From positions 1 to 64,000 of the forward strand of contig OW568864.1 in NCBI GenBank assembly GCA_938743325.2: DNA of 64,000 nt. The letters are read 5' to 3'. This DNA comes from Pycnococcus provasolii (taxonomy: Eukaryota; Chlorophyta; Pseudoscourfieldiophyceae; Pseudoscourfieldiales; Pycnococcaceae). The translations under genes were made by a program, and so were the position numbers. Positions 2,427 through 8,774 of the stretch are shown piece by piece. Every line of letters begins with the position of its first letter. Positions within the stretch are counted from its first letter, which is position 1. The notes below the pieces were generated by a model. That model saw only the letters and a program-made list of their open reading frames with translations. It did no database searches and was not told the DNA's origin.

Positions 2427-4019
2427 TCAACCTTTCACCGTAACATTGTAAGGCAGCTTCTGCATCGCCTCGAGAGCGATGGGAAACGAGTGCACGGTCG
2501 TTTGTCCTTCAACGCTGTCAAAGTAGTGGTACGGAGGTGGAAAGTCTGGGTTAACGCCATCCCCGCGTGATGCTCCTCCAACGTACGCCTCGAAGCCGTA
2601 GAGGGAAATGGTCTGACAGAGCTGTGCGGCAACAAGCACGGCGAACCAGCCGCTGAGTGGCTTCGGAATGTCGCTGTCAATTCGTGCACCCTCCGTCTTT
2701 GCGTACTTCATGCGAGCTAGTCGACTCTTGCTCCCGTGTACCCGTTTCACCTCCTTCACCACATCTCGCCATAGCTCGATGCCACTCGCATGAAAACCGG
2801 GATGGACGATCCACATGCGATGTGGGAAAGACTTGGAAACGCGAGCGTACAGGCCGTATCGCGATGCATGCAGCGTGCTTTCAAACAGCACGAGACGCGC
2901 ATCCGCCTGATCCGCGGCGGCGATGGCCTCGATCGAAGCAGCGGTGACGGGTGAGGTCGACAGGTAAGGTCGAGCGCGCAGGAACGCGCGCGCAGCTAAA
3001 CGTCCAGGCCAAGTTGCGCCGGAATCGTGCGGGAGAGCAAAAAGATGCTGGTGATCGGTAGCCATGCGAGCCTTGATACGCTCCACGGTTTTGATAATGC
3101 GATTCGCATTCGCATGGTTGCTGATGTCATACGTCGTACGGCTACCAACGTGCTGCTCGTATCCTTTCGTAGGTGCGAGGTTCAACCTAAAAACGGCGTC
3201 GTGTGCGTCTATGGCAGTTCCGTTGTTTGCCTTGAGTAGCGCACCAGCGTTACCAACCACCGCGCACGTTGCGTGCATACCACTGCGCTCTCGCTTCACG
3301 TCATCTTTAGGCAAAACGCCACCGGCGACCACGTCAAGTGGGAAACGCAAACGCTCGACGAGTAGCCCTGCCTCGTATAAAGACGAGTTGCCCGCAGCAT
3401 ACCGTGCCGACCGCACGAGACCTTCGTTGCGCACGCAAGTGTCCAAATATGTCGAAACCCTCTCAGTGCTTGCATGCTGTTTGAACGACTTTTGGTGCAG
3501 GAGCAATTCCGTCGCCCCGTAGCAAACACCGCGGTGTACGAGCCGCGAGCTTGCTGAGAGTGACTGCGATTCCTCAAGTTTCGTGGCTATGGTGCAAGGA
3601 AGTGGCAGTGCGTCGCCGTTAGACATGCGCGGTTCAGTAGTTGGAGGTGACGGAGCGCTGGAAAGTCCAAGCGACTGGGTGAGTGAGACGGTAAGGGAGT
3701 GAGTGAGTGCTGGAACACCTGTCGTCGTCGTCGTCCTCGTCGTTGTCGTCAATGTCGAAGCTGTTGTCGCTATGACGATGTTAGTGCTGTTAGTGCTATC
3801 ATTGTCTTTGCTGTCCGCGTGACGACGTTTGCGCTGTCGACGTCTCTGAGCGGCCGAGGTTCCATGTGGTGCAACAGTGGATGCCCACGTATGATCAACG
3901 AGATCCGCCTCCTCCACGTTCGCCAGCCTTAAGTGGGTATGGTGGTTCGCACCCCTGAACAGCTGCGTGACCGCAATGCACGCGAGCACAGTGAGAAAGA
4001 TCACGCGCAACTGCTCCAT
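2427..4019 (-). CDS. GT29 sialyltransferase-like type II membrane protein
   Basis: A 530-residue protein. An N-terminal signal anchor (residues about 5-22) is followed by a Ser/Thr-rich stem and a GT29 catalytic domain. The large sialyl motif is clear ([16 protein letters not shown]... FRLNLAP ...GSRTTYDI), as is the small motif ([15 protein letters not shown]...ISLYGF). Then come motif III (YHYFDS) and the VS motif (HSFPIALE, His...Glu). The family uses CMP-activated 2-keto sugar acids in the Golgi. In plants and green flagellates the donor may be CMP-Kdo rather than CMP-sialic acid, so the substrate is not settled by sequence. The start at 4019 gives the membrane anchor directly. It lies in tandem with the channelrhodopsin gene, separated by about 530 bp. 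Confidence 0.88.
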
Positions 4020-4547
4020 AACGTTACGCGTTTACGCTCCATAACCCACCACTGCGGTCAACAAGAGCCGTGCCGGCATTCTCCACCCAAATCTGTGCAA
4101 CACCGGCCGCGAGGCTGTGCGGTCTTTAGTATTCCTAGCTTTGGGAGCAAGCTTAGGGCTACCCTAACCCTAGCCCTAACCCCAACCCTAATCCTGGGTA
4201 ATTATTATGCCCTTGGGACACGCTCTAAAAATGTTCGCTGGATGTTCGCGGGCTCGCGGCCGTTGTCCTGTACTGTAGTATCAGGCTGATTAAGGTGGTC
4301 AAGAAGCGACCGGTCGCGAGCCTGCAAGCTAACCAACCTTATAAATATATACAGGGGATATTATTTCGTCAATGAAGTCAAAAAAAGATCATTACATACC
4401 TTCTAACTAGTTCAAAAGACAGTAAACACCATCCCGCATCCCGAAAGTCTCCTTTAAAAAAGCGACAACTTCACAAGAACCACATGGTGGTGTTTCAAAG
4501 AAACCAAGATAACCCACACAAAACCTGTTTCTAAAAACACAACCATC
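4020..4547. other. Intergenic region with a short interstitial telomere-like tract
   Basis: No gene is seen. Bases 4154-4196 carry degenerate telomere-like units (CCCTAACCCTAGCCCTAACCCC). The rest is AT-rich 3' flank of the channelrhodopsin gene and the 5' flank of the sialyltransferase-like gene. Confidence 0.6.
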
Positions 4548-6361
4548 TCACCTCTTCTTGGAAGGCGTCGTGACCACCTCGCGGATCGAACGATTCAGCT
4601 CACGTAGTGTCTCCTCCAAATCACTTCTCTCCGCCTTGCTCATGTTATCGCTCTGTTTCTGTTCGTTCACCAGCTTGATGGCGTTGCGAATAATCTCAAG
4701 GCGTTCTGCAGCATCGGCATTATTCGGGTTTGTAAATGAACTTTCGCCGTTCGGCATGTGGCTGTTAGGCGTGGCACTACCAGATCTTGGCAGAGGGAAT
4801 CCTTCGGCGAGTTCGGCAAGTCCCGCGAGGTTCTGGTTTGAGCCATAAGGAGAATCGCCGTTCAGCACCTTGCGCCTTTCCGTGCTACGCCTCCTTGCCT
4901 CCGAGTCAGGATCATTTCCATTCACATTCATATCCATATTGATCTTAACGTCCGAGAGCTCCTTGTCCCGATGCTTTTCAAGCCAGAGAGAAAGCATCTG
5001 CTTCATGACAATTTGAACGTCGTCATCGTCGAAAGGCGACACCAGGTAATCGTCCAACCCGTGTGACGTCATCTCGTCGGAGAGGATCTCGTCAATCTCG
5101 CGCAGGTAAGCCACCACAGGAACGTGACGAGATTGGTCGACACCCAATCTCAGGTACGGACTCGGGTCAGCGCCGGAGATGACGCGATAGTTGTTCTTTC
5201 GAAGCGTTTCAAGGTTGATGAGCAGGAAGATGAAGCGATCGGGATTTTTGTTGATCTTCGCCTCCGCCTCCTTGTTCGTGCGAACGTGAACAGCCGTCGC
5301 GCCAGCACGGGACAGCTTGCTGCGCCAAAACTCGTAGATGGGAGTCTCCGGCTCGCAGACGAGTACTTCTGCCTTGCGCTTCATCTTCGCGAATCCACGG
5401 CGCTTGGAGTGCTGAACCAGACCTGCATCGCTCAGCGGGCGAAGAACCTTCCAGCGAAGGCTCCAGCCAATGTACCCGAAAATGTGCTTCGTGATGATGT
5501 CGCTGATGTACACGAAAACCTCGCTCCACTTGCCTGGAAGCACGGCCCAACCCTCCTTGCCAAGCGCAAAGGCAATGCCAAAGGCAGTCCAGCCGATGTA
5601 GAAGCAGATGGCCATGTACTGCACGTGGGTACGTGCCTGCTCAGGGAACATCTTGATGGCCTCTCGGAAGAGCTTGCCGACCATAACAAAGACCGCCATG
5701 CAGCACATCCAGCTCAGCAGGTAAAACACGTAGGCCCAGCTGTCGTCACGGCTCATCGCGGAAGTCGCTCCAGTGAGAATCTGTTGTTGTTCAGTTCAAG
5801 GTGGCGGTTTCGTTGATTTTACAGTTTTGTTGTTTCGGTGATGTGAGACGTTCGCCGGTGACTTGCAGTTTGGAAAGAAGACAAGGTGGGAGAAAACACG
5901 TACCATGGCGTTGAAGGCGCCAACGAGGCGAATCATGCGGAGCGTATCGTACGTCTCCTCGCCAGTGAGGTTCGAGATGAGAATGAGAAGCACTGGACAA
6001 GTGAACAGCCAACCGCAGAAACGAATCCACGGAACCTTCTTGTGCTCAGCTCCAGCCGGCTGTCGTTTACGTTTTTGGTCGTGTGGGACGGCAAGGTTGA
6101 GTTGTGTCAGTTGCAAGGTGGCGAAACGGAGACAGGCGGACAAAAAGCAGAATGGCCACATACGTAAACGACGAAAGGCTCGGTGTTGCCAAGAGTGTAA
6201 GCGAGAATGTTGAATAGCATGCCAACGGAACAAATCCATATCACCTCCCACTTGCACGTCTTCTTGACGTAGTTGTATATGTAGAACACGAGCAGGCAAA
6301 CGAAGCCAATAACGTCGATAATAGCCAGCGTGGATTCGAGTACCTCGTCGAGTTTCGCCAT
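4548..6361 (-). CDS. Channelrhodopsin-like protein with pseudo-receiver C-terminus
   Basis: Three exons (6361-6164, 6059-5904, 5780-4548) joined by phase-0 GT-AG introns of 104 and 123 bp encode 528 residues. Seven helices lie at about 8-31, 38-60, 77-96, 105-125, 134-156, 170-191 and 202-223. Channelrhodopsin hallmarks are WIRFCGWLFTCPV...LISNLTG in helix C, GATSAM after helix D, and SDIITKHIFGYIG in helix G with retinal-binding Lys216 and Asp212. Aligned to ChR2 by eye, C128 is kept (Cys87). E123 is Gly82, D156 is Phe115, H134 is Leu, and E90, E97 and E101 are Gly, Ala and Gly. The extracellular N-terminus is only about 7 residues. Residues about 254-384 resemble a response-regulator receiver, followed by a Ser/Asn-rich linker and a C-terminal coiled coil. 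It probably resides in the eyespot-overlying or plasma membrane. Loss of the glutamates suggests anion conductance or a non-canonical channel; that is inference. Confidence 0.9.
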
Positions 6362-6403: not shown

Positions 6404-6534
6404 GGCAGGCCAGCGGCGTTGGGTGAGGTGGCTTGTGTCAGAACTACCGTGTAGTGCCAAAGTGGCGGCAGGCCAGCGGCGTTGGGTGAGGTGGCTTGTG
6501 TCAGAACTACCGTGTACTGTAGTGCCAAAGTGGC
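6404..6534. repeat. Tandem duplication (63 bp) just upstream of channelrhodopsin start
   Basis: Copy 1 is 6404-6466 and copy 2 is 6467-6534. They are identical except for a 5-base insertion (ACTGT) in copy 2. The array starts about 43 bp upstream of the channelrhodopsin ATG, so it lies in the promoter or 5' UTR of that gene. Confidence 0.9.
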
Positions 6535-7418
6535 TCGAGCGGCCCCCTGGATATACTCTCAGTATCTCGGCCGAGATAAGCCAAAAGATTTCGCCCTTCC
6601 CCCTTTGCCCTCCCCCTCCCCCACCTAGGCGGCCGACCTACGATAGGAGGCCGCTTTTTGGCTTCCAGCAAGGACGAGGACACGACGAGGACGCGTTGAA
6701 ACAAGCTTTTGCACGGTTGATATCGGTTGATGAGGTACGTGCACATCGCGGCTTTCAATGCGTGAGGTCACATCACTCAAGGCCTCAAAACGACATGGCG
6801 CAAGTCGATGGGGACAGGAGATTCCCCATACAAGTTTCTCGAAGAAACACGTGCAAGTTTTCTCGATTTTTAGGAAGTGGGCGTTCGTTGGATCATTTTG
6901 AAGTTGATCGGGACATGTCGACGTCTTTCCAAACCTTACCCACAAGTCTGCCACTGCCACTCTGCCAGACCTCCTCTGCCGAAGCAAGGAGACCGCCGCG
7001 CCCAGTCCCATCCATCGCTTTCGACCGTGAAGTCTGAAGGCGAGAAAGAACTCGGGCATCGGGCGTTTTGAGGCGTGGACGCGTGGTGCGTTTGGATGGG
7101 GCTGGGGATGGGGAATGGGTAGGGTTGGGCAAGGAAAGGAAAGGGAAACGACACCGCCTTCCTGCCTTCCTTCCCTTTCCCCGGGCGGCCTAACCTGCCC
7201 CTGCCCTGCCCTAAACTGCCCTGCCCTGCCCTTTTCCCGACAAGTGGATGGGCACCCCTCTCAGGCCGGTCCTGTCATCCACTTCCCTCCCCCCCCCTGC
7301 CCCTCTTCTCGCTGAGAAAAACCTACACGGTGGACAACGCCCCACCCGCAACAAGGCGAAGAAAAACAAAACCAAGAAAAAGGCGAAACAAACAAAAACA
7401 AACAAAGAAAAAGTCGTC
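6535..7418. other. Long divergent intergenic region
   Basis: About 880 bp between the channelrhodopsin upstream repeat and the GARP gene. Pyrimidine-rich runs occur around 6590-6630 and 7160-7310, and CCCTGCC units near 7197-7230. Several open frames exist but none resembles a known protein. I see no gene here. Confidence 0.5.
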
Positions 7419-8774
7419 ATGGAGCTCGACCCGTTGTGCGCAATGGGCGCGCTGCTACCGCTCGATTCGCGGTTAGCGACACCTCTTCTCGAAGACATCT
7501 TCGACTTTGGCGAACCCTTCTCAAGTCTACCGCCCAAAATGGCGGACACGTGGGACCCGTTCTTCGCCTCTCTGCCACCGTTATCGCACACACCGCCGCA
7601 CACGAACGCCAACGCATTATCGCCATTTCGCGCGCATATGGCGAGTACGTCTTGGCCTCCCATGTACCCTGGTGGTGCAGAGCACATGCATTACGCACAT
7701 CTGCACGGACCGGAGAACTATCACCACCCGTCTGCCGCAGCAGCAGCAGCCGCTGCGGCAGCTGCACAACATCACCACCACCACCCTCACCATCCTTCCC
7801 AACAACAGCAACACAACCACCACGCACAGCAACACCACCACCACGCACAGCAGCACCAGCAGCCTTACCACGCGCACCACCACCACCACCACCCGCAGCA
7901 GCACCACCCGCAGCAGCAGCAGCAGCAGCACACGCACCATACACAGCCGCATGCACAAAGTCAACGTCACCACCACCCAGGGGCGGCGTTGTTGCCATCT
8001 TTGGGGTATCCGCCGCACGTTGGGAACCAGCCTCCACCTCCACCACCACCTCCTCCTCCTCCTCACATGGGTTCGTTGGGAGGTCAAGGATATGGTGCGG
8101 TAAGAGACGCTGGGCGAGCAGCAGGCGCGCAGGATGCCAAGGCTGGAGCTGCCACGGGTGGCACGGCTGAAAATCCACGAGCTGTCAAACGTGCACGCCT
8201 CGTCTGGACGCCTCAGTTGCACCGCTGCTTTGTCAAGGCGGTGAACGAAAGTGGCGTCGACACGGCAGCTCCCAAGCAAATCATGAAGCGCATGCAGGTG
8301 GAGGGTCTCACGCGAGAGAACGTGGCCAGTCACCTTCAGAAGTACCGGGCGTACCTAAAGCACCGCTCGACAGGACAACCGGACAAAAGCAAAATGGCCA
8401 TTGTCGACGACAAGGCTCGCGAAGGAGCGAGCGACGAGGAGGTCGACGACGAAGGCAACGCGCTGCCGCCACCGGCAAAGTCGCACAAGGAGGAGGAAGA
8501 CGAGGACGAGGAGGAGGAGGAGGAGGAGGAGGAGGAGGAGGAGGAGGAGGAGGACGACGACGACGACGTTGAAGACATCGTCGCTGGCACTGGTGCAACA
8601 AAGGCTGAGACGGGCGGTGGGGAAGGTGGCGGTACTGCAAGAATGCCGCCGGCGAAGTCGCACAAGGAGGAGGACGTTGAAGACATCGTCGCTGGCACTG
8701 GTGCAACAAAGGCTGAGACGGGCGGTGGGGAAGGTGGCGGTACTGCAAGAATTAAGCTTCCTCCGGCTGCGTGA
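7419..8774 (+). CDS. GARP (LUX/PCL1-type) MYB-like transcription factor
   Basis: A 451-residue nuclear protein. The GARP B-motif at about 257-312 is diagnostic: RLVWTPQLHRCFVKAV, a KQIMKRMQVEGLTREN segment, and VASHLQKYRAYLKHR. That is the arrangement of LUX ARRHYTHMO/PCL1 and ARR-B DNA-binding domains. The N-terminus is followed by long Ala, His/Gln and Pro tracts. After the DNA-binding domain an acidic stretch (about 20 consecutive Glu, then Asp) is flanked by two near-identical modules (PPAKSHKEE...DVEDIVAGTGATKAETGGGEGGG), an internal duplication. No phospho-receiver domain is present, which favours a LUX-like over an ARR-B-like protein. The first in-frame ATG after the A-rich leader is at 7419. 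LUX proteins act in the circadian evening complex; that role here is inference. Confidence 0.85.
   Translation: MELDPLCAMGALLPLDSRLATPLLEDIFDFGEPFSSLPPKMADTWDPFFASLPPLSHTPPHTNANALSPFRAHMASTSWPPMYPGGAEHMHYAHLHGPENYHHPSAAAAAAAAAAAQHHHHHPHHPSQQQQHNHHAQQHHHHAQQHQQPYHAHHHHHHPQQHHPQQQQQQHTHHTQPHAQSQRHHHPGAALLPSLGYPPHVGNQPPPPPPPPPPPHMGSLGGQGYGAVRDAGRAAGAQDAKAGAATGGTAENPRAVKRARLVWTPQLHRCFVKAVNESGVDTAAPKQIMKRMQVEGLTRENVASHLQKYRAYLKHRSTGQPDKSKMAIVDDKAREGASDEEVDDEGNALPPPAKSHKEEEDEDEEEEEEEEEEEEEEEDDDDDVEDIVAGTGATKAETGGGEGGGTARMPPAKSHKEEDVEDIVAGTGATKAETGGGEGGGTARIKLPPAA

Follow-up and report, generated by a model that had tools for sequence, protein, structure and literature searches.

Gene model and splice junctions

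What kind of protein is made by a channelrhodopsin gene in which the helix-C counterion and most of the pore glutamates have been replaced? The question is raised by a gene in the window (the 64,000-nucleotide stretch of Pycnococcus provasolii DNA analysed here, which is the first 64 kb of its contig, C4). The gene lies on the minus strand at 6361–4548 and has three exons and a 528-amino acid product, which we call the query. A telomere-type array of CTAACC (TTAGGG) repeats occupies positions 1–285, and the channelrhodopsin gene is subtelomeric.

Both exon joins are in phase 0 and both introns run from GT to AG. An open frame is not sufficient for choosing the junctions, because 151 GT/AG combinations in the stretches that we scanned around the gene give frames longer than 480 amino acids. 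The NCBI protein 'rhodopsin channel [Pseudoscourfieldia marina]' (P0001) is identical to the query at 523 of 528 residues in a gap-free match, and therefore has the same junctions; a second protein, P0002 (53% identity over the whole protein), aligns across both of them without a gap. The junctions are fixed by homology to these two sequences, of which P0001 is possibly also a predicted gene product. The parts of the gene are:

6164–6361, minus strand: exon 1, residues 1–66, with helices A and B and residues E39 (=Glu82), V40, G47, A54 and G58
6060–6163, minus strand: intron 1, GTATGT...ACAG, 104 bases; junction the same in P0001 and bridged gap-free by P0002
5904–6059, minus strand: exon 2, residues 67–118, with helix C, the start of helix D, R79, G82, TCPV with C87, L93 and F115
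5781–5903, minus strand: intron 2, GTACGT...ACAG, 123 bases; junction the same in P0001 and bridged gap-free by P0002
4548–5780, minus strand: exon 3 including the stop codon, residues 119–528, with the remaining rhodopsin domain, the receiver-like domain and the tail
5427–6361, minus strand: seven-helix rhodopsin domain, residues 1–236, both introns being within this span
6012–6014, minus strand: codon of G82, at the helix-C counterion position (ChR2 E123, bacteriorhodopsin Asp85)
5913–5915, minus strand: codon of F115, at the DC-gate Asp156 position
5487–5501, minus strand: D212-I-I-T-K216, the remaining counterion and the retinal lysine, with normal four-residue spacing
4971–5372, minus strand: candidate receiver-like domain without phosphorylation residues, residues 255–388, recognised by a profile match to PhoP (1mvo), shuffle controls and (beta-alpha)5 order in the AF2 model of P0001
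4551–4970, minus strand: C-terminal tail, residues 389–528; the AF2 model of P0001 has low confidence at 390–472 and predicted helices at 409–425, 470–493 and 500–522

The query is a channelrhodopsin nearest to the green ones, with paralogs

The query matches the Pfam family Bac_rhodopsin (PF01036) with an E-value of 5.9e-31. Its nearest relatives of solved structure by sequence are KnChR (3.6e-30), iC++ (8.1e-29) and ChR2 (3e-28), with bacteriorhodopsin at 1.8e-13. The AF2 model of P0001 has the microbial rhodopsin fold, and the 11 best of the 50 structural matches listed for it are green channelrhodopsins or engineered forms of them. The query also has the retinal lysine (K216) and the TCP motif of helix C (T86-C87-P88), and its SNLTG and GATSAM motifs are the same as those of ChR2. 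With CrChR2, C1C2 and KnChR (33–35% identity) it shares the seven-helix fold, TCPV, and the residues equivalent to R120, C128, D253 and K257. Judged by sequence and by predicted fold, the query is a channelrhodopsin whose nearest relatives are the green channelrhodopsins. A preliminary description of the locus had proposed both this identity and the splicing of three exons into a seven-helix rhodopsin, and both proposals hold.

By Pfam and protein searches we found five channelrhodopsin-like loci in the 32.3 Mb, 46-contig genome: the query gene, C37:274830, C18:445765, C9:852797 and C39:357511, the last four of which we refer to by contig. The C37 and C18 proteins are 42% and 41% identical to the query in the rhodopsin domain, and each of their genes is one open frame. 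All four tree builds recover a clade of the query, P0002, C37 and C18 (ultrafast support 97, 95, 97 and 99). C9 groups with ChR2, C1C2 and Chrimson in three of the four (support 86–89) and is unplaced in the build without GtACR1 and HcKCR1. The query falls on the channelrhodopsin side of the tree, but the branch splitting 11 sequences from bacteriorhodopsin and HcKCR1 has weak support (76/92), and GtACR1 and C39 have no settled place.

In a set of 5.8 billion proteins, only P0001 and P0002 matched the query among the 8000 scored candidates that had most words in common with it, and also among 259 candidates at E ≤ 10. MsACR1, PymeACR1 and Py2087ACR1 were not recovered from this set; known channelrhodopsins such as ChR2 were not recovered from it either, so this absence says little. 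Scans of viral contigs and a search of phage records found no channelrhodopsin relative. We also considered and rejected two other placements. HcKCR1, which stands for the KCR reading, is 18% identical to the query and groups with bacteriorhodopsin in the tree, on long branches. As for MerMAIDs, most sequences of that group retain Glu90, according to passages of PMC8406140, and the query does not.

The telomere repeat array, less than 7 kb away, could suggest a gene in decay, but the 528-amino acid frame is open and is conserved in both P. marina and P0002, and the functional residues are invariant across the clade. We regard decay as extremely improbable.

Pore and retinal-site residues

We mapped residues with a MAFFT alignment of the query and its relatives to ChR2, C1C2, KnChR, Chrimson, GtACR1, HcKCR1 and bacteriorhodopsin. 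At the carboxylate positions, ChR2 E82 corresponds to E39 of the query, E83 to V40, E90 to G47, E97 to A54 and E101 to G58; in helix C, R120 corresponds to R79, E123 to G82, C128 to C87 and H134 to L93; and in the later helices D156 corresponds to F115, D253 to D212 and K257 to K216. In contrast to ChR2, then, Glu83, 90, 97, 101 and 123, His134 and Asp156 have all been replaced, and Glu82, as E39, is the one pore glutamate of five (82, 83, 90, 97, 101) that is retained. Every replacement named in the preliminary description (at E90, E97, E101, E123, H134 and D156) reappears in this alignment, as do the residues it gave as conserved (C128, R120, D253 and the retinal lysine), but it had omitted the retained Glu82.

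Alignment to ChR2 further places H217 at N258 and F20 at Ser63, and the helix-F proline (bacteriorhodopsin Pro186) is replaced by G186. D212 stands four residues ahead of K216, which is the normal spacing. Two carboxylates occur elsewhere: E61, three residues past the E101 position, and E205, at the T246 position. Their places in the ChR2 alignment suggest that both are near the outer mouth of the pore.

The residue pattern of the query extends to its clade. C37 and C18 have the equivalents of G82, F115, H217 and G186 and the Glu82-only pattern; they retain the histidine at H134, and in helix G the residue aligned with ChR2 T250, three residues ahead of the Asp212 counterion, is an arginine. 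P0002 departs from this pattern only at E101, where it has an Asp. The other two loci are of different kinds. C9 has a CCR-like set (E82, E90, E97, E101, E123, C128, H134 and D156). C39, assembled from parts 1087–1333 and 1457–2706 of the extracted locus L008 by a putative splice, has TTP instead of TCP (C128T), Asn at D156, Gly at E123, Asp at E90 and Glu at E97. In ChR2, DC-gate changes of the C128 and D156 type slow channel closing, and by analogy the channel made from C39 may by nature be slow or bistable.

The residue pattern is that of prasinophyte anion channelrhodopsins

Several published descriptions bear on selectivity. Passages of PMC8406140 state that the Glu82 homolog is the only one of these glutamates present in prasinophyte anion channelrhodopsins (ACRs), and that Glu90 is present in most ACRs, those of prasinophytes and Labyrinthulea excepted. 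The carboxylate at the Asp85 position is absent from all known ACRs, and glutamates 82, 83, 90, 97 and 101 are conserved in most chlorophyte CCRs, in the parts of PMC8818676 that deal with them. Further passages, in PMC12448745, are consistent with the prasinophyte ACR pattern of Glu82 alone, a neutral Asp85 position and an Asp212 counterion. The query retains E39 and has non-carboxylate residues at V40, G47, A54, G58 and G82; it has one of the five chlorophyte CCR glutamates. In both respects–Glu82 alone of six glutamates, and a neutral Asp85 position with Asp212 as the putative lone counterion–it resembles MsACR1 of Mantoniella squamata, PymeACR1 and Py2087ACR1 of Pyramimonas, and the viral members of this group. 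The ACR-like loss of carboxylates seen in the preliminary description thus agrees with a published pattern, and its remaining counterion, Asp212, fits as well, but its picture of an unusual channel with a single counterion overstated the strangeness, since in ACRs this counterion position is neutral as a rule.

MsACR1 is a Cl- conductor with a putative counterion D215 and a peak at 555 nm (PMC11473104, in part). Seven of the nine retinal-pocket residues named in the sections of that paper on the pocket appear to be the same in the query, including W142 and G186, with correspondence taken from the description; matched in the same way, F138 and S218 of MsACR1 differ from Y138 and T215 of the query. 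GtACR1 is like the query in its neutral helix-C counterion, its Asp212 and its neutral residues at 97 and 101, but it is only 22% identical and retains Glu90, which the query does not. From published residue descriptions we infer that the query is of the prasinophyte-ACR type.

The residue pattern does not by itself settle selectivity, because there are published counter-examples. Chronos and DsChR1 are CCRs despite missing the counterion carboxylate (PMC8818676, in part), and NlCCR, with a neutral counterion and no carboxylate in TM2, nevertheless carries Na+ (in passages of PMC12448745). The query might therefore be a cation or proton channel despite its stripped pore, like NlCCR, MsCCR or CsCCR; prasinophyte homologs with few glutamates are described as H+-selective in PMC8406140, and the carboxylates E61 and E205 are still present. 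But in the same passages the H+-selective MsCCR and CsCCR retain Glu82 and Glu90, and the Cymbomonas protein Glu90 and Glu97, whereas the query lacks both 90 and 97, and a separate CCR-like gene, C9, exists in the same genome. We consider a cation or proton channel quite improbable, and the residues of the query argue that it probably conducts anions.

A receiver-like domain in the tail

Residues 255–388 have (beta-alpha)5 order in the AF2 model of P0001. A profile of the tails of the query, P0002, C37 and C18 (A3), searched against solved structures, matches PhoP (1mvo) over its whole length with an E-value of 2.3e-4. The score of 23.2 bits exceeds that of all 40 column-shuffled profiles (maximum 2.0), in a comparison scored on the two best matches only. 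There are 23 sequences at E ≤ 10 in this search, 17 of them named as response regulators or as AdeR, KdpE or PhoB, and only PhoP is below 0.001. The query and P0002 also have the DDYLxxPF motif.

Unlike a receiver domain of family PF00072, the query has Leu at the aligned phospho-acceptor Asp and Ser at the conserved beta-5 lysine. The lysine is absent from all four tails, and no tail has an Asp in the Asp column, C37 and C18 having one two columns later. On these letters the domain is a pseudo-receiver at most. Pfam PF00072 scores 13.3 bits for P0002, below the cut-off of 30.2, and has no match in the query, C37 or C18. With a receiver profile for which PhoP and 1nxo were the only sources, the tail of the query scores 13.3 bits (0 of 500 shuffles as high), that of C18 3.4 (4/500) and that of C37 1.6 (11/500), and the receiver likeness of the two paralog tails, taken alone, is weak. 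The 50 structural matches listed for the whole P0001 model include no receiver chain; the rhodopsin domain takes up that list.

By profile comparison the tails of C9 and C39 have no similarity to this domain. We also rejected a shared domain in the CrChR2 tail, which has no detectable similarity to that of the query: hhalign gave an E-value of 0.0023 at 12.6% probability, and shuffles of this target scored as high in 31 of 500 cases with A3 and 104 of 500 with the receiver profile. Parts of PMC7902849 state that the long cytoplasmic extensions of characterised channelrhodopsins have no significant mutual homology, and that the tail of KnChR modulates channel closure; in PMC10637977 the relevant passage describes the cytoplasmic domain of GtACR1 as disordered, in contrast to the receiver-like tail of the query. 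A role in docking or regulation seems plausible for the latter.

Could the query instead be a non-conducting photosensor that signals through this tail? Receiver-family matches in the genome number at least 32, counted as stretches of which some belong to a single domain, and none is at the channelrhodopsin loci; two-component parts thus exist, and the sequence of the predicted (beta-alpha)5 domain is common to all four clade members. No channel current is reported, in the passages of PMC8406140, for three tested Chlorophyceae proteins with Glu82 only or for glutamate-free Chlorodendrophyceae homologs. The tail, however, is missing the aligned phospho-acceptor and beta-5 lysine, the rhodopsin domain retains the channel signatures TCP, R120, C128 and Glu82, and the Asp-Lys spacing is normal, unlike that of the inactive Chlorodendrophyceae group in those passages. 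We therefore judge a pure photosensor unlikely.

Proposed mode of action

The best explanation as a whole, to which we give a probability of about 65%, is that the query is a channelrhodopsin of a green alga and belongs to the prasinophyte-ACR type: an anion channel with a receiver-like tail. It joins parts that we computed (gene structure, residue pattern, the clade with P0002 and two paralogs, the channelrhodopsin fold and the receiver-like similarity) to a channel activity, an anion selectivity, a role for the tail and a physiology that we infer. Retinal would be bound to K216, with its protonated Schiff base held by D212 alone because the helix-C partner is G82. Light would isomerise the retinal and open a pore among helices A, B, C and G. 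Because the carboxylates at 83, 90, 97, 101 and 123 are gone and R79 and R227 are still present, anions (Cl-) are most likely what flows through this pore, down the anion gradient, with a resulting shift in membrane potential. P. marina is a flagellate, and the shift in potential probably serves photobehaviour of the flagellate stage. The cytoplasmic receiver-like domain, its phosphorylation residues lost, is probably a docking or regulatory module.

A more elaborate version, which we think doubtful, is that the pseudo-receiver gates or positions the anion channel through two-component-type partners. One protein would then combine a light current with phosphorelay-type signalling, and the genome would hold three such paralogs, together with a CCR and with a homolog whose DC gate is naturally altered at two positions (equivalents of C128T and D156N).

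Novelty and significance

A near-identical counterpart of the query is already known, as the NCBI 'rhodopsin channel', and so is the Glu82-only residue pattern. The receiver-like (beta-alpha)5 domain is the new finding here, as a feature that sequence and model indicate to be common to the query, two paralogs and one outside relative. Judged by title or the start of the abstract, the open-access papers listed on channelrhodopsin tails include none that mentions a receiver domain there, and those listed for Pseudoscourfieldia or Pycnococcus include none about their channelrhodopsins; in PMC12558739 the one mention concerns dualchrome. Passages of PMC7693036 discuss a histidine kinase plus a response regulator in sensory-type rhodopsins. 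The 2022 review PMC8818676 names, in its passages on prasinophyte channelrhodopsins, the classes Mamiellophyceae, Nephroselmidophyceae and Pyramimonadophyceae. The host class of the query, Pseudoscourfieldiophyceae, is outside these three and appears to be an addition to them.

MsACR1, as wild type and mutant, has been used for light silencing of neurons (PMC11473104, in part), and further prasinophyte ACR members would add to the tools of optogenetics. If the clade does conduct anions, a single 32 Mb genome would have both ACR-type and CCR-type channelrhodopsins, and could be used to ask how algae combine them in phototaxis. The receiver-like tail would give a tangible starting point for studying the cytoplasmic domains of channelrhodopsins, which are poorly understood.

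Surroundings of the locus

The channelrhodopsin gene is adjoined by an open frame of glycosyltransferase family 29 (sialyltransferase-like) at 2427–4031 on the minus strand. Upstream of its start codon, by eye, about 60 bases are duplicated in tandem (window positions about 6407–6533), a repeat that is absent from the Tandem Repeats Finder list. A Myb-like transcription factor gene, identified by a Myb-like domain match and containing long His/Gln/Ala runs, follows at 7215–8774 on the plus strand; it is a putative GARP factor. Elsewhere in the genome, ten stretches on up to seven contigs match the RPE65/carotenoid oxygenase family, some of them being exons of one gene, and a supply of retinal is therefore plausible. 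Paired receiver-family matches occur in large open frames near the starts of three contigs (C1:3346–4092, C41:4691–5437 and C37:8792–9535), and the C1 and C41 pairs, which have equal spacing, may derive from one subtelomeric two-component gene that was copied.
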